This document shows, in pieces, positions 21,762 through 27,256 of a stretch of 64,000 bases of DNA. Both the position numbers and the translations under genes were made by a program. Each line of letters opens with the position of its first letter. Position 1 is the first letter of the stretch. Origin of the DNA: Candidatus Eremiobacterota bacterium (GTDB taxonomy: Bacteria; Vulcanimicrobiota; Vulcanimicrobiia; Vulcanimicrobiales; Vulcanimicrobiaceae). The DNA lies in assembly GCA_019240525.1 (NCBI GenBank), contig JAFAYE010000001.1, positions 1,089,300-1,153,299 on the forward strand, given 5' to 3'. Below the pieces are notes generated by a model. It was not told the DNA's origin. It worked only from the letters and a program-made list of their open reading frames with translations, and ran no database searches.

Positions 21762-22751
21762 TTAGTTCGGTACGCCCACGAATCCGTGCTGCACGTTGCT
21801 CGCATCGACATAGTAACCGCTGATGTCGCCGTTGTCGTTGATACCGGTGACGACTGTTCCGTTCGCAGCGTTGGTTTCGTCAATGCTCTGCCAAACCTGT
21901 TGGCTCGGGCTCTCGGTCGGACCGGTCAAAATGAATCCGTGATTGACGCCGTGCGAGTCCTGATAGTATCCGGCGATTTGATCGCTGGAGTTGATCGCGA
22001 GCGCTTCGGTCAACACGGCGCCGGGATATGCGACCGTATAGTACGATCCAACGCGCTCGAAGAAACCGATGGTTTGGCTCGAAGTTTTTTCCCAGCCGGC
22101 CACATCGTTGACCGCGTTGATTCCGGTCGCCTCCCCGCTTTTCATTCCGGCCGGCTTGAGTCCGGTGAACTTCTTGTTGGGAATATCGATCACGATCGGG
22201 ATGTTACCTCCCGATCCGGTCGTATAGAAGCCGACGGCAAAATCCGAATTGTTGATACCAAGGATTTCGGTAGCGGCCCCGTTGCCGGTACCCTCTTTGC
22301 GATCCTTGAAGAGCGACATGAGGCCGTTGAAGATCACGAACCCCCACGTTCCACGCAGTTGCGGCGGTCCGACGACGTAGCCGGCGATGATCGGCGTGGT
22401 CGAACTGCTGGAGATGCTTGTTGCAACGGTCGCCACGGAGCCAAAGTCCGTTATCGACGCGAAGCTTCCGTAGGGAGGCGTCGCGCTATAGCCGACGGAG
22501 AGGCCGCTCACGCCGGTTCCGGCCGCTCCGACGATTTCACTCGAGTTATTGATTCCATTCACCGCATTGGTGGTGAGTCCGGTCTCGTCAACGGTTTGAT
22601 ACGTATACGTGACCGCCGCCGAACGAACCAACGACCGGACTGCGTGCCCCTGCGGCAACAGGTTCGACGATGAGAACGATGAGCCGGCGCCGCTGCATGA
22701 CGACAATGCGACGCCGCACAAGAGTAGGCTAGGGAGTCGCCACGAATCCAT
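21762..22751 (-). CDS. HAF-repeat extracellular lipoprotein (copy 1)
   Basis: A 329-aa lipoprotein. I use the ATG at 22751 (GGGAG 7 nt upstream) rather than the in-frame ATG at 22769. The signal ends in GVALSSC. The mature part repeats the HAF-family pattern of GIN..G.IVG.Y: AVNGINNSSEIVGAAG, EILGINNSDFAVGFYT, ATGINAVNDVAGWEK, ALAINSSDQIAGYYQDSHG and VTGINDNGDISGYYVD. Each unit probably forms a propeller blade. It ends with VQHGFVGVPN. Its coding sequence overlaps the end of the upstream paralogue by 23 bp, so the two are one transcript and may be translationally coupled. Function of HAF proteins is not established. Confidence 0.85.
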   Translation of the reverse strand: MDSWRLPSLLLCGVALSSCSGAGSSFSSSNLLPQGHAVRSLVRSAAVTYTYQTVDETGLTTNAVNGINNSSEIVGAAGTGVSGLSVGYSATPPYGSFASITDFGSVATVATSISSSSTTPIIAGYVVGPPQLRGTWGFVIFNGLMSLFKDRKEGTGNGAATEILGINNSDFAVGFYTTGSGGNIPIVIDIPNKKFTGLKPAGMKSGEATGINAVNDVAGWEKTSSQTIGFFERVGSYYTVAYPGAVLTEALAINSSDQIAGYYQDSHGVNHGFILTGPTESPSQQVWQSIDETNAANGTVVTGINDNGDISGYYVDASNVQHGFVGVPN

Positions 22752-23766
22752 GTTGGACTCCCTTTCCATCGACGTAATAGCCGCAGATGTCGTCGTGGTT
22801 GTTGATGCCCGTCACCCACGTGCCACCCTCAGCATTCGGATCGTCGATCTTCTGCCAAAACTGCGCGCCGCTGCCCTTAGTTGGACCGATCAGCATGAAT
22901 CCGTGCGTGTCGCCACTACGGTCGACATAATTGCCCACGACCTCATCCTGCCAGTTCAGGCTCAGAGCTTTCGTTTGCGTCGAGCCCGGATACGAGAGCG
23001 GATAATACGTGCCCGTCTGCAGGAAAAAGCTTGAGGCACTGACCGAGCCCGAAGTGGTTTCCCAGCCGACGATGTTGCCTTTCCCGTCAATGCCCGTCGC
23101 ATACGAGTTCTGCGCTTCCGGAGGGGTGAGATCGGTATAGGTTTCGGTCGGCACCGCAAGCTCGAAGGCGACGCTGACGCCGGTGCTGTTGGTATAGAAG
23201 CCAACGGCCTGCTCGGAGTCGTTGATGCCTAAAATCTCGGTAATCGCGTTATTGCCGGTACCTTCATTGGGATCTTCCAGAAGCGTCCAAAGCCCTTGGA
23301 TCCTGACGAAACCCCAGGTGCCGCCCAAATTGTTGGGGTCGATCACGTACCCTGCAACGATCTTATTGCTCGATAGGCTCGTCGCCACGGTGCCCTGAGC
23401 GCCCGGGTCGTTCTCGCTGCGAAACTTCGTGTACGGCGGTTGCGACGTGTACGTCTCGGGGATGCTGCTGCCTTCTCCGCCGCCGTAGATTCCGACGATC
23501 TTGGAGAGCTGGTTGATTCCCGTCACCGCATTGGTCTCGGAGTTGGGATCGTCAACCGTTGTGAACTTAAATGGAATCGGCGTCGACGATGCCACCGTGT
23601 GAGCGATACGTTGAGATGTCCGTAACGCACTTTGCGAGGTCGGCGGAAGTCCGCCGGTCGGCCCGACCGTTGAAGCCGGGCCGCTACAGGCGGCCGCGGC
23701 GAGAACGCATAGACCGATCAACAGTGCTGATGCGTGTGGGGATTTGAAGATAGATGTGCAGTTCAT
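22729..23766 (-). CDS. HAF-repeat extracellular lipoprotein (copy 2)
   Basis: A 345-aa lipoprotein with signal SALLIGLCVLAAAACSG and AGGAG 7 nt before the ATG. It is a close paralogue of its downstream neighbour and of 26276-27256: all three share a blade like GTWGFVRIQGLWTLLEDP, then GTGNNAITEILGINDSEQAV, a YPGSTQTKALSLN-like blade, and a C-terminal GVQHGFVA ending. Repeats of the type TGINQLSKIVGIYGG and TGIDGKGNIVGWET run through the sequence. Tandem position and a 23-bp overlap with copy 1 indicate local duplication. A possible operator palindrome (GTTAAC-GC-GTTAAC) lies 138 bp upstream. Surface or secreted location is inferred from the lipobox. Confidence 0.87.
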   Translation of the reverse strand: MNCTSIFKSPHASALLIGLCVLAAAACSGPASTVGPTGGLPPTSQSALRTSQRIAHTVASSTPIPFKFTTVDDPNSETNAVTGINQLSKIVGIYGGGEGSSIPETYTSQPPYTKFRSENDPGAQGTVATSLSSNKIVAGYVIDPNNLGGTWGFVRIQGLWTLLEDPNEGTGNNAITEILGINDSEQAVGFYTNSTGVSVAFELAVPTETYTDLTPPEAQNSYATGIDGKGNIVGWETTSGSVSASSFFLQTGTYYPLSYPGSTQTKALSLNWQDEVVGNYVDRSGDTHGFMLIGPTKGSGAQFWQKIDDPNAEGGTWVTGINNHDDICGYYVDGKGVQHGFVATP

Positions 23767-23979: not shown

Positions 23980-24111
23980 ATGGATGAAAACAACGAGCGC
24001 CGAGACGGAGTTGATGACGCCGACGACACCGGACTGATCGCCGGTGAGGAGCTGATCACCCGAGCAGAAACGTTGCTTCCGCTCGAGCGCCTTCGAGAAG
24101 ACGAGCCTTAG
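23980..24111 (+). CDS. Possible 43-aa acidic protein
   Basis: An ATG-to-TAG frame encoding 43 residues, very acidic (DENNERRDGVDDADDTG, then GEELITRAETLLPLERLRED). It has no signal peptide or membrane segment, and no good Shine-Dalgarno site is visible. Its stop overlaps the stop of the convergent uppS gene. The balanced composition and amphipathic C-terminal half (LITRAETLLPLERL) look protein-like. A chance ORF in GC-rich DNA remains quite possible. Confidence 0.4.
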   Translation: MDENNERRDGVDDADDTGLIAGEELITRAETLLPLERLREDEP

Positions 24112-24800
24112 GTGCCGTAACGGCGGCGGCGTGCTCTAAAATCCGTCAGCGCCGCATTGAGGTGGCGTTCGTCGAAGTCGGGCCAATAGATCGGCGTGGC
24201 CCAGAACTCGGCGTAAGCGGATTGAAACAAGAGGAAGTTCGATAACCGCAATTCGCCGCCGGTTCGCACGATGAGGTCGGGGTCCGGCAATCCCGCGGTA
24301 TAGAGGCGGCTCGCGAGCGCGCCTTCATCGATCGACGAAACATCGCGTGCGCCGCTGCGCACTTCTTCGGCGAGCGAGCGTACCGCGTCGCCGATTTCGC
24401 GACGTCCGCCGTAGTCGATCGCGAGATTGAGCACGATGCCGCCATTCTGCGACGTTTCGGCGGCCAGCCGTTCGAGCGCGATCCGCGTGCTCGCGGGCAG
24501 ACGCTCCCTGCGACCGCAAAGGCGCACGCGGACACCATCTCGCGCTAGCCGGCGCAGCTCGCCGCGCGCGGCACGCGTGCACAGGCGCATCAAGAGACCA
24601 ACTTCGCGCGCCGGGCGATCCCAATTCTCCTCCGAGAACGCATATGCCGTGACGACGCGCACGCCGGCGGCGCCGGCGGCGCGAACGATGCGGCGAAGTG
24701 CCGCAATCCCGCGACGATATCCGTACGCCAGCGGCAAGCCGCGCTGCGCCGCCCACCTCCGATTGCCGTCCATAATAATCGCGACGTGTTGCGGCGTCAC
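24108..24800 (-). CDS. uppS: Undecaprenyl diphosphate synthase
   Basis: A 230-aa cis-prenyltransferase that adds isopentenyl units to farnesyl diphosphate to make the C55 lipid carrier for peptidoglycan and other wall glycans. Signature blocks are complete: HVAIIMDGNRRWA with catalytic Asp11, GYRRGIAALRRIV, TAYAFSEENWDRP, LNLAIDYGGRREI and the IPP-binding region RTGGELRLSNFLLFQSAYAE. The length is typical. Its ATG overlaps the stop of the winged-helix regulator gene (ATGA), so it is the third gene of a coupled operon that starts at 25755. UppS usually sits with cdsA, dxr and frr; here it sits with a regulator and an unrelated membrane protein. A second cis-prenyltransferase elsewhere in the genome is possible, so this may be an additional copy. 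Confidence 0.95.
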   Translation of the reverse strand: MTPQHVAIIMDGNRRWAAQRGLPLAYGYRRGIAALRRIVRAAGAAGVRVVTAYAFSEENWDRPAREVGLLMRLCTRAARGELRRLARDGVRVRLCGRRERLPASTRIALERLAAETSQNGGIVLNLAIDYGGRREIGDAVRSLAEEVRSGARDVSSIDEGALASRLYTAGLPDPDLIVRTGGELRLSNFLLFQSAYAEFWATPIYWPDFDERHLNAALTDFRARRRRYGT

Positions 24801-25159
24801 GTCGTGGCCAATCGGCGCCGTGCGGCGGGCTCTTTCGCCCGGTCGTGAACGTCGCGGACGACGGCTTCGAGTTCGTCGACGTAGGCGAGAAAGCGCACGC
24901 GTCCGCGTTTGGTGATGCGATAGACCGTTTGCGGTCGGCCGGAACCCCGCTGCTTTTCAACCGCGACGATGCCGAGATCGGTCAGGGCGTGAACGTGCCG
25001 ATTGAGGTTGCCGTCGGAGAGATCGCAAGCAGCGGCGAGTTCGGTAAAGCTCAATCCGCTGGGATGGGCGATCAAACACGTGCAAATCGCCAACCGGCCG
25101 CGTTCGTGAAAAATTCGCTCCAAGCCGGGATAGGAGAACGGCGCTTGCATCTCGCTCAC
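24797..25159 (-). CDS. Small winged-helix regulator (PF13601/HTH_34-like)
   Basis: A 120-aa DNA-binding protein that is nearly all one winged helix: FSYPGLERIFHERGRLAICT, LSFTELAAACDLSDGNLNRH (the recognition-helix region), LTDLGIVAVEKQRG and TVYRITKRGRVRFLAYVDEL. This matches the short MarR/ArsR-like group whose members typically sense through a partner or a bound metabolite. The start is the GTG at 25159: GGGAG lies 8 nt upstream and the GTGA overlaps the stop of the upstream membrane-protein gene. The downstream overlap is with uppS. Two ACTTTGT-N3-ACAAAGT sites just upstream of the operon are the obvious candidates for its own binding sites, which would make the operon autoregulated. The ligand is unknown. 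Confidence 0.9.
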   Translation of the reverse strand: MSEMQAPFSYPGLERIFHERGRLAICTCLIAHPSGLSFTELAAACDLSDGNLNRHVHALTDLGIVAVEKQRGSGRPQTVYRITKRGRVRFLAYVDELEAVVRDVHDRAKEPAARRRLATT

Positions 25160-25755
25160 TGGGTGCGCTCCCGCCAAATGAGCATACCCAGGCCGATTTG
25201 ACCCAAGCCAAAGCCCAGGGGCATCACCCACCAGGCGAGGGCGACCGCTTGCAGCGGCGAGACCAGAAAGAGTGCGGCGAGAGCAGCGAAGCCGAGCGTG
25301 ATCGCAAAAGTCGAGTGTGGAATCGAATTGCGCGAAGCAAAGAGGCCGAGAGAATAGAATGCGAACCAGGTGCCGGGAAGCAGCTCGTACGCCGACCGAT
25401 CGATCAGGGCGACGGTGAGCAGGCCCCCGAGTACCACACTCGGCGCGATCGAACGTGCGGCCGTGCGAAATCGGCTGGTCGCGCCGGGACCGCGCTGCTT
25501 CCAAAGCCAGGCGACAACCGCGCCGTAGTTAAGCGCAAGGGCCACCGCGAGGCAACCCATCCAAATAACGACGTACCGATGCAGCGCTTCGGTTCCCGAC
25601 GGATGCGGCGCAGTTTCGAGCTGCAACCATCCGGCCGCAAAGGCGGCGACCCCGCTCGCGATCGCGGCTGCCGCCGAATACCCTTCGAATCGTTGAACCC
25701 CGACGAGCCGATCGCGCACCTCGGCAAGATCGGAAAGGGCCCGTTCGATTTCCAC
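25156..25755 (-). CDS. Integral membrane protein, first gene of the uppS operon
   Basis: A 199-aa protein that starts at GTG 25755 with AAGGA 9-10 nt upstream. A short charged N-terminal helix (EIERALSDLAEVRDRLVG) is followed by about six hydrophobic segments: AAIASGVAAFAAGWLQL, YVVIWMGCLAVALALNYGAV, VVLGGLLTVALIDRSAYELL, TWFAFYSLGLFASR, FAITLGFAALAALFLVSP and AVALAWWVMPLGFGLGQIGL. I recognise no transporter or enzyme motif. The overlap with the winged-helix regulator gene suggests the two proteins work together, for example as membrane sensor and regulator, or the membrane protein may be the main target of the regulator. Function unknown. Confidence 0.85.
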   Translation of the reverse strand: MEIERALSDLAEVRDRLVGVQRFEGYSAAAAIASGVAAFAAGWLQLETAPHPSGTEALHRYVVIWMGCLAVALALNYGAVVAWLWKQRGPGATSRFRTAARSIAPSVVLGGLLTVALIDRSAYELLPGTWFAFYSLGLFASRNSIPHSTFAITLGFAALAALFLVSPLQAVALAWWVMPLGFGLGQIGLGMLIWRERTQ

Positions 25756-25770
25756 GCTCTGCCGTCCTTA

Positions 25771-25809
25771 ACTTTGTAGCACAAAGTCATTAACTTTGTA
25801 CCACAAAGC
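25771..25809 (-). promoter_or_regulatory. Two tandem palindromic operators ahead of the uppS operon
   Basis: Site 1 is ACTTTGT-AGC-ACAAAGT (25771-25787, 7-bp perfect arms). Site 2 is ACTTTGT-ACC-ACAAAGC (25793-25809, 6-bp arms). Their centres are 22 bp apart, two helical turns, so two dimers could bind on the same face. They lie 16-54 bp upstream of the first codon of the operon that encodes a winged-helix regulator, so autoregulation is the natural reading. Confidence 0.8.
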
Positions 25810-25825
25810 CGGCGCTAGCGCAAGC

Positions 25826-26131
25826 TCAGTTCGATCGCGAGCGCTTGCGGACGGTCTTCCGTTTTCTCTTGGCGCGTGTCGCCATGGAATCGACCACCGC
25901 CGCCGTCTCTTTGAGAATTTGCCCAGCCGTGATCACCGTGTCACCAACTTCGTCGGCTCGCGCAGCGGTCGCGTGAACCTTCTCGGCGACGCGTCGGACC
26001 GTACGTTTGGGGTTTGCCGCGGCTTTCTTCACCTTGGTTGCCAGGCCGCCAGCGGCCTTCCGCGCCCGGGTTGCGGACTTCTTCGCAGCGCTCGGTTTAC
26101 GCGAGGTTGATTTTTTTGCTTTACGAGGCAT
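25826..26131 (-). CDS. Histone-H1-like Lys/Ala/Arg-rich protein
   Basis: A 101-aa very basic protein. I start it at the ATG at 26131, with GGAG 7 nt upstream; the longer frame to 26245 adds a non-matching extension. The N-terminal half is (K/R/A)-rich (MPRKAKKSTSRKPSAAKKSA, then ATKVKKAAANPKRTVRRVAE). A helical middle (DTVITAGQILKETAAVVDSM) is followed by a second basic tail (RAKRKRKTVRKRSR). This is the composition of bacterial H1-like nucleoid proteins (HctA/AlgP style). DNA or RNA binding is likely from charge alone. It lies just upstream of the operator sites on the same strand but has its own RBS. Confidence 0.8.
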   Translation of the reverse strand: MPRKAKKSTSRKPSAAKKSATRARKAAGGLATKVKKAAANPKRTVRRVAEKVHATAARADEVGDTVITAGQILKETAAVVDSMATRAKRKRKTVRKRSRSN

Positions 26132-26275
26132 CGTCACTCTCCATAGCAAATTTCTGCAACCTTTCCCCAGCTCGGCACCGACCAAACAACCATCGAGGTA
26201 GCGCAACGCAGGATTTTCGCGACGGCATGGTGTCTGTTGACTCATCGACGCAACGCTCTCTGGATTGATTGTGCG

Positions 26276-27256
26276 ATGAACGCTTCGAGGACTCTCACTC
26301 TCCTTTCCGCCGCCGCTCTGGCCGCGTGCGGCGGACCGGCCTCTTCGCCCGACCGCGTCTCGCCGATTGCGGGCTCTTCCGGATCGCAGTCGACCCTCGG
26401 CTCGACGCCCGTGAGGTTCAAGTTCACCACGCTCGACGATCCCGTCTATTCAGACGTGAACGTTTTACGGGCAATAAATAACCGGGGGCATATCGTCGGC
26501 TATTACGGTAGCGGCTCTGCGAGCGACCCCGCCGTCGGATATATCATCGATCCGCCCTATCTGCCGAACAACTTTCACAAGATCGTCTTTCCGAAGGCAC
26601 TCGATACTTTTCCGAGCGCGCTGAACAACGCCAAAATGATGATGGGGTACGAGTCTTCATCGGCGGGCAAGACAATCAGCTATGGTTATACCGGCCGAAT
26701 CTGGTCCACGTATCAAGAACCGAAGGCTCATGGCCCCGGCAGCTCCACTGAGATCTATGGCGTGAACGATTCGGGCATCGCCGTGGGCTGCTACCACGGC
26801 GCATCCGAAAAGGGCTGCTTCCAGCTCACCGTCGCCACCGATCGTTACAAAGGCCTCGACCTGCCCGGAACCAGCGCCGTTGCGACCGGAATCAATGGGG
26901 CCGGCGACCTTATCGGTTACTGCAGGCAGTCTCACCGCGTCGTCGGCTTCATTCGAAAAAACGGAGCCTATACCGAGCTATCCTATCCCGGCTCGGTCGG
27001 TACCGAGTTCCTCGGGATCACCGCTCACGACTACGTGACCGGCTTTTACGTCGATAAGTCCGGCGCAACCCATGCCTTCTTGCTCACCGATCCAACGCAT
27101 CCGCGGTTGACGGCGTGGCAGTCGCTCGACGATCCCCTCGGCCTCGGAACGACGGTCGGCACCGGTGTCAATATTCATAAAACGGTCGTCGGCTACTACG
27201 TCGACGTCGCGGGCGTCACGCATGGCTTCGTGGCCGCGGTGGAGTCGCCCAAGTAG
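26276..27256 (+). CDS. HAF-repeat extracellular lipoprotein (copy 3)
   Basis: A 326-aa lipoprotein that starts at ATG 26276; the signal MNASRTLTLLSAAALAACGG ends in a lipobox. Mature repeats follow the same scheme as the pair at 21762-23766: RAINNRGHIVGYYGSG, EIYGVNDSGIAVGCYH, ATGINGAGDLIGYCRQ, YPGSVGTEFLGITAHDYVTG, FYVDKSGATHAFLLTDPTHP and a final GVTHGFVA. The spacing of YPGS, HAFLLTDPT, WQSLDDP and HGFVA blocks is shared by all three, so they are paralogues. The copy here is on the opposite strand and about 2.5 kb away, so duplication involved a move. Function unknown. The RBS is weak. Confidence 0.86.
   Translation: MNASRTLTLLSAAALAACGGPASSPDRVSPIAGSSGSQSTLGSTPVRFKFTTLDDPVYSDVNVLRAINNRGHIVGYYGSGSASDPAVGYIIDPPYLPNNFHKIVFPKALDTFPSALNNAKMMMGYESSSAGKTISYGYTGRIWSTYQEPKAHGPGSSTEIYGVNDSGIAVGCYHGASEKGCFQLTVATDRYKGLDLPGTSAVATGINGAGDLIGYCRQSHRVVGFIRKNGAYTELSYPGSVGTEFLGITAHDYVTGFYVDKSGATHAFLLTDPTHPRLTAWQSLDDPLGLGTTVGTGVNIHKTVVGYYVDVAGVTHGFVAAVESPK

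Follow-up and report, generated by a model that had tools for sequence, protein, structure and literature searches.

Why should a gene for a cis-prenyltransferase, uppS, share an operon with a small winged-helix regulator and a six-helix membrane protein? The question is raised by a three-gene locus in a 64,000-nucleotide stretch of DNA (the window) from a Candidatus Eremiobacterota (WPS-2) genome (GCA_019240525.1, contig JAFAYE010000001.1, 2.8 Mb), whose phylum is supported by named relatives. Peptidoglycan and surface glycans depend on undecaprenyl phosphate (Und-P), a carrier that is both essential and scarce, and the control of its pool is largely open. We lean, with some reserve, towards reading the operon as a dedicated control unit for isoprenoid and Und-P supply, built as an autoregulated repressor with a membrane partner. 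The genes, their operator, the position of the operator on promoters and the set of target genes are conserved, as described below.

All three genes are encoded by the minus strand (Table 1), at the positions given in a first-pass annotation of the sequence. The winged-helix gene is likely to start at GTG 25159, because relatives have an ATGA or GTGA junction at the first boundary; with this start both junctions are 4-nt overlaps, and with the alternative start, ATG 25150, there would be a 5-nt gap to the membrane-protein gene. The overlaps had been described as GTGA and ATGA: their size stands, but both are GTGA here and ATGA is found in relatives.

The twin palindromes two helical turns apart that had been noted before the first gene are present. 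Allowing one mismatch, the operator pattern matches four times in the window (both strands counted) versus 0.04 expected from shuffles, and the whole genome contains three operator sites, two before the operon and one other. Operator sites are directional, ACTTTGTG-N-TACAAAGT, where TG-N-TACAAA constitutes an extended -10 box, and in the directional sites collected TG-N-T(A/G)CAAA is oriented towards the target gene. In 85 of 104 non-redundant directional sites from relatives the TTG of a -35 box falls at a constant distance or one base off it, which corresponds to a 17-18-bp spacer. A dimer bound to the dyad would cover the -10 box, a geometry that suggests repression, and transcription of the operon would begin near 25788. 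Since an ATG is frequently found within a few bases downstream of the operator, many of the transcripts are probably leaderless. As for the doublet itself, it recurs in relatives but is not general, most of them having a single site before the operon. Among 21 distinct doublets the spacing is 21-23 bp in 12 and 29-32 bp in nine and never falls between, and the two sites are therefore phased on the same face of the helix.

Conservation within the class is extensive. The membrane protein adjoins a winged-helix orthologue in about 90 of 117 class genomes, and in the first 60 loci inspected, which came from overlapping sets and represent about 40 distinct genomes, uppS always follows the pair directly. 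All distinct class loci that were aligned have the palindrome ahead of the membrane-protein start, unchanged or slightly altered and commonly between -21 and -27, such that operator and trio are conserved together. The condition under which the first-pass annotation would have given up its reading, a trio conserved in no relative, clearly does not apply, as the trio recurs across the class and in other phyla. Across the 117 genomes there are 162 copies of the exact core, CTTTGTNNNACAAAG, versus six of the reversed control pattern. An operator site is present in 75 of 89 regulator-bearing and 7 of 28 regulator-less genomes (Fisher p 1e-8, which ignores shared ancestry), and the 14 regulator-bearing genomes without the exact core include several with degenerate operator variants. 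In one genome (G094, loci L029 and L059; G, C and L numbers are our handles for genomes, contigs and loci, G000 being the window genome) an operator sits within the trio and separates the winged helix from uppS, an arrangement common in Alphaproteobacteria.

The trio UppS scores 253.6 bits against PF01255 and 249.5 bits against TIGR00055 (cut-off 109.55), and contains MDGNRRWA (the MDGN-RWA motif, with the catalytic Asp) and a C-terminal RTGGELRLSNFLL (the RxGGE-R-SNF motif). By profile and motifs it is a clear member of the cis-prenyltransferase family, with a putative C55 product. A conserved His (GHKAG/GHRRG) is replaced by Tyr in the window UppS and in many regulated Eremiobacterota UppS (GHRRG to GYRRG), and is never Tyr in the canonical copies examined. 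As to whether the genome holds a second uppS, a point left by the first-pass annotation, a canonical copy is indeed present as a separate gene at G000:C1:2761712-2762374, in the order rpsB-tsf-pyrH-frr-uppS-cdsA-dxr-rseP-ispG; the trio copy lies outside this housekeeping frr-uppS-cdsA-dxr neighbourhood.

The earlier description of uppS as locked into the operon does not hold. In several genera (G019, G041, G042, G057, G060, G063, G065, G072, G073 and others) uppS is detached and carries the palindrome just before its start codon, with the ATG about 6 nt past the operator core. Retention of the operator by detached uppS argues that the link to the regulator lies in the operator and not simply in being a neighbour. 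No PF01255 gene other than the trio copy was found in family f2, most of family f3, G062, G064 and G079, and in G067 and G068 the only one found is a separate, operator-preceded copy; these are draft genomes in which absence is not proof, but a sole regulated UppS must there serve the whole cell.

We placed the canonical and regulated UppS of Eremiobacterota and other phyla in a maximum-likelihood tree, the deep branches of which are weakly supported. All Eremiobacterota UppS, regulated and canonical, form one clade (100/99), and the regulated UppS of other phyla stand apart from it (100/100). This separation indicates that uppS was recruited to the regulator at least twice, with ispH recruited in other lineages. 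We rejected the possibility that the window uppS arrived with the module from Alphaproteobacteria, as the tree groups the window UppS with those of Eremiobacterota. Some regulated UppS of other phyla also bear a likeness to the second UppS described by NF011412/PRK14839: an Acidobacteriota homologue (L282) exceeds the cut-off and the regulated UppS of Alphaproteobacteria fall in the same clade. The window UppS, by contrast, scores 218.7 bits against a cut-off of 334, lies outside the subfamily and groups with the housekeeping UppS of Eremiobacterota.

Three further observations concern operator-preceded uppS genes. At detached loci (L166, L167, L169, L172, L173, L153 and L154) a gene for a tricorn-like protein of about 980 residues diverges from the same operator and may be co-controlled by it. 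The operator-preceded PF01255 protein of G020:C139 (L154) is very divergent (tree branch length 2.5), possibly reflecting a chimeric contig or a different prenyltransferase. In G039:C267 (L022) the regulated uppS is found in two tblastn pieces with residues 43-77 missing, an apparent internal deletion or frameshift that is possibly an assembly error in an incomplete metagenome-assembled genome (MAG).

Beyond the class, a scan of named genomes gave 572 relatives among the candidates, and the loci outside the phylum were drawn from 80 of these 572; MAG taxonomy is as titled by the depositors, and single MAG contigs may be misassigned. With that reservation, the pair of membrane protein and winged helix is present in at least five bacterial phyla. 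The gene after the pair is uppS in Alphaproteobacteria (Bradyrhizobium, Methylobacterium/Methylorubrum, Rhizomicrobium, Fulvimarina and Methyloligella), in a single Chloroflexota MAG and in a single Acidobacteriota genome; it is ispH in Planctomycetota (L265, L278), and in Acidobacteriota (L274, L282) it is creD, alone or ahead of uppS. Another Eremiobacterota class (G132-G140) also has the pair followed by ispH; its winged helix is 43-51% identical, and near-identical palindromes precede ispH or the membrane protein in several of its genomes. Outside Eremiobacterota the operator takes the form ACTTTG-N5-CAAAGT; it stands ahead of the membrane-protein gene, often with a further copy separating winged helix and uppS, and the pattern occurs 0-3 times per 3-8.5-Mb genome, mostly at the pair locus only. 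Rhizomicrobium electricum has two further sites, before a creD and before a DAGK_prokar gene. The DAGK_prokar family includes the undecaprenol kinases of Gram-positives.

Separate targets of the operator were found with a longest-open-reading-frame heuristic, which yields out-of-frame artefacts, and are claimed only if they recur across genomes or match a profile (Table 1). The third site of the window genome, G000:C1:581103-581119 (L003), lies directly before a gene whose product, a membrane protein of 93 aa, belongs to no Pfam family; this protein is conserved together with the operator in about nine other loci. At L147 and L152 the operator is situated between dxs and a divergent gene for a membrane protein of about 219 residues, the start of which is 65 bp away and which may be another lipid-pathway gene. 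The proposal that this is a dedicated regulatory unit for lipid-carrier supply, already made in the first-pass annotation, gains strength from the finding that ispH, dxs, creD and a DgkA-family kinase gene share the operator or the pair.

The regulator had been called PF13601-like, and it matches PF13601 (HTH_34) above the gathering score (E 4.5e-16, 59.2 bits versus 27; residues 19-98 align with profile positions 2-80 of 80). It is about 117 residues long with a short C-terminal helix, and its orthologues are 54-87% identical within the class and 43-55% in other phyla. The only solved-structure relative found by profile search is PH1061 of Pyrococcus horikoshii (PDB 1UB9, E 5.4e-12), which differs in being archaeal and deposited as hypothetical, with no membrane partner or target given. 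For the membrane protein, the AlphaFold2 model (mean predicted local distance difference test score, pLDDT, 89; predicted template-modelling score, pTM, 0.82) has an amphipathic helix at residues 2-20 followed by six membrane helices. Invariant positions in 35 homologues from several phyla are A6, R14, F23, G25, A38, Q45, W65, P105, P127, W130 and G137. No Pfam or NCBIfam family was matched; DedA, DUF368, PAP2 and BacA were not among the Pfam matches of 35 family members at E up to 0.1, and no PDB fold matched with E below 1. The window genome also has a second PF13601 module (L011, G000:C1:988414 region, 649-2389), consisting of a 204-aa membrane protein, a 92-aa winged helix and an ATP-binding cassette transporter ATPase; homology of its membrane protein to that of the trio is unsupported (profile comparison, E 0.41).

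Based on these observations, we propose the following scheme. A dimer of the winged helix would bind the palindrome ACTTTGTGNTACAAAGT, which contains the promoter -10 box, and by occluding this box would repress its own operon and a small regulon. This regulon would usually hold a carrier-supply step (uppS, or ispH or dxs elsewhere), often together with an envelope protein such as CreD. The membrane protein would relay the state of the membrane or of the carrier lipid, most likely by using its conserved N-terminal amphipathic helix to capture or release the repressor. When the carrier is short or wall synthesis is blocked, repression would be lifted and extra UppS (or IspH or Dxs) and CreD made, with UppS raising the pool. 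DNA binding, repression, the signal and the contact between winged helix and membrane protein are the parts of the scheme that we infer. A link between CreD and the carrier has been reported elsewhere: in Burkholderia cenocepacia CreD rises more than 30-fold upon Und-P sequestration, and UppS overexpression relieves this rise (PMC12152626), and colicin M, which destroys lipid II, strongly induces creD (PMC3599342). A more specific version, in which the membrane protein directly senses Und-P or a related polyprenyl lipid and controls the winged-helix repressor of its synthesis, forming a homeostat found in at least five phyla and governing the sole uppS in some genomes, is one we put forward tentatively, as possible rather than probable.

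Several points weigh against a dedicated carrier-supply unit: (i) seven genomes, mostly incomplete MAGs, have a site but no detected regulator; (ii) genus g11 (10 genomes) has neither the membrane protein nor a close regulator orthologue nor the operator and manages with one uppS, so that the system is dispensable there; (iii) the window genome has only its three sites, the third of them before the 93-aa membrane protein, whose role is not assigned, and CreD is absent from this genome; (iv) the DUF4352-like protein and the 281-aa secreted protein are not obviously lipid-carrier genes, and the regulon may therefore be broader and concern envelope stress; and (v) since the membrane protein has neither a known relative nor a fold match, the case for a sensing role is built on gene order, topology and conservation.

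The fourth point leads to the best-surviving alternative, a general repressor of cell-envelope stress, in which the pair would sense damage to wall or membrane rather than carrier lipid and UppS would be one of several effectors beside CreD and small envelope proteins. The CreD-family genes are the commonest separate target, CreD marks wall stress in other bacteria (PMC4689548, PMC2654508), and other targets are envelope proteins without an assigned role. On the other hand, the gene most constantly joined to the pair encodes an isoprenoid or carrier enzyme, uppS having been recruited twice and ispH in others, and dxs and the DgkA-family kinase fit supply rather than damage repair. We regard this alternative as rather unlikely, although it deserves to be taken seriously.

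Less probable still is that the membrane protein acts as an effector, for example a carrier-lipid transporter or recycling enzyme, and that the winged helix itself senses an isoprenoid metabolite. Co-operonic placement with a biosynthetic enzyme and conserved Q, W, R and S positions are in keeping with such a role. Yet Pfam places the membrane protein in none of the accepted transporter or phosphatase families, it has no fold match and no catalytic-looking conserved cluster, and a regulator of about 117 residues leaves little room for a ligand pocket. That the winged helix is an activator, or dual-acting, at the operator promoters appears very improbable: the weak -35 boxes (TTGCG) and the TACAAA -10 box could call for help, but in the collected sites the dyad overlies the -10 box and extends in the direction of the predicted start, as is typical of repression by occlusion. 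Finally, a chance or hitch-hiking neighbourhood, vertically inherited without regulatory meaning, is hardly credible, for although operons are inherited and a shared neighbourhood within one genus proves little, the computed evidence (at least five phyla, independent uppS recruitment, exchange for ispH, an operator retained after uppS moved, and 162 sites versus six in the control) contradicts it.

How does the proposed repressor with its membrane partner compare with known systems? BlaI/MecI with BlaR1/MecR1 pair a small winged-helix repressor with a membrane sensor and use dyad operators in response to a wall-related signal. By our proposal the trio shares the repressor, the cognate membrane protein, the dyad operators and a wall-related signal; it differs in its winged-helix family and in having no lactamase target, and the HExxH metalloprotease motif is absent from the 199-aa membrane protein. 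SigM of Bacillus subtilis likewise provides a transcriptional response to carrier shortage or sequestration that favours wall synthesis (PMC11081497; review PMC12826051), but is an extracytoplasmic function sigma factor with membrane anti-sigma factors, whereas the trio combines a winged-helix regulator with another membrane protein, has its operator on the -10 box and includes the carrier synthase in the operon itself. CroRS of Enterococcus faecalis (PMC10952268) resembles it in that isoprenoid-pathway genes and uppS are raised on envelope attack, but is a two-component system of other protein families with a large regulon, in a Firmicute that uses the mevalonate pathway. With CreBC-CreD of Gram-negatives the trio has CreD-family targets in common, CreD responding to wall or Und-P stress; CreBC (PMC4689548, PMC2654508) is a histidine kinase and response regulator pair, whereas here creD is marked by a PF13601-regulator operator that uppS also carries, or lies within the uppS operon (Acidobacteriota).

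The first-pass annotation knew of no described system of this layout, and we likewise found no prior description of a uppS/CreD/winged-helix regulator or of the operator sequence in the open-access literature, which leaves most subscription papers uncovered. Two candidates were set aside: the paper on HigX, an alphaproteobacterial membrane transcription factor, contains no uppS, undecaprenyl or creD, and RmaH, a MarR regulator whose overexpression raises uppS, is a functional analogue only. The plan of a repressor with a membrane partner is already known; what appears to be new here is the membrane-protein family and the dedicated set of lipid-carrier and isoprenoid targets. A recent review lists few intrinsic controls of the Und-P pool and calls for a search for more (PMC12826051). 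If the proposal is correct, the module would represent dedicated transcriptional control of Und-P supply with a defined operator and targets, would give a pathway to two uncharacterised protein families (the membrane protein and the 93-100-aa protein), and would connect CreD, whose association with wall stress is of long standing, with carrier supply through a common operator and not by phenotype alone. The module occurs in the culturable and harmless bacteria Rhizomicrobium, Methylorubrum and Bradyrhizobium and is hence testable.

Table 1. Features of the operon in the window, and recurrent separate targets of the operator in relatives
Feature	Position in the window, or loci	Strand	Remarks
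Six-helix membrane protein, 199 aa, GTG start	25156..25755	-	Open reading frame; proposed sensor or anti-repressor partner
PF13601 winged-helix regulator, 117-120 aa	24797..25159	-	GTG 25159 overlapping upstream stop, or ATG 25150
uppS paralogue (cis-prenyltransferase), 230 aa, GTG start	24108..24800	-	Overlaps winged-helix stop by 4 nt
Distal operator GCTTTGTGGTACAAAGT	25793..25809	-	Contains extended -10 box; conserved in the class and beyond
Proximal operator ACTTTGTGCTACAAAGT	25771..25787	-	Centre 22 bp from distal operator
Predicted -35 box TTGCGC	25818..25823	-	17 bp from -10 box; read from sequence
Predicted -10 box TACAAA, extended TGGTACAAA	25795..25800	-	Within distal operator; read from sequence
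CreD-family inner-membrane proteins	About 18 loci		Directly downstream of directional site; PF06123 over cut-off in two tested
DUF4352-like anchored protein	13 loci		Directly downstream of directional site; sub-threshold match
93-100-aa membrane protein	9 loci, plus third site of the window genome		Directly downstream of directional site
dxs, first enzyme of the methylerythritol phosphate (MEP) pathway	G012, G013		Directly downstream of directional site
281-aa secreted protein	6 loci, genus g37		Directly downstream of directional site

Around the operon, three related secreted repeat proteins of about 340 residues form the flanks (window 21762-23766 and 26237-27256). A gene for a lysine- and alanine-rich, histone-H1-like protein (window 25826-26131) lies on the same strand and ends just upstream of the operon promoter.

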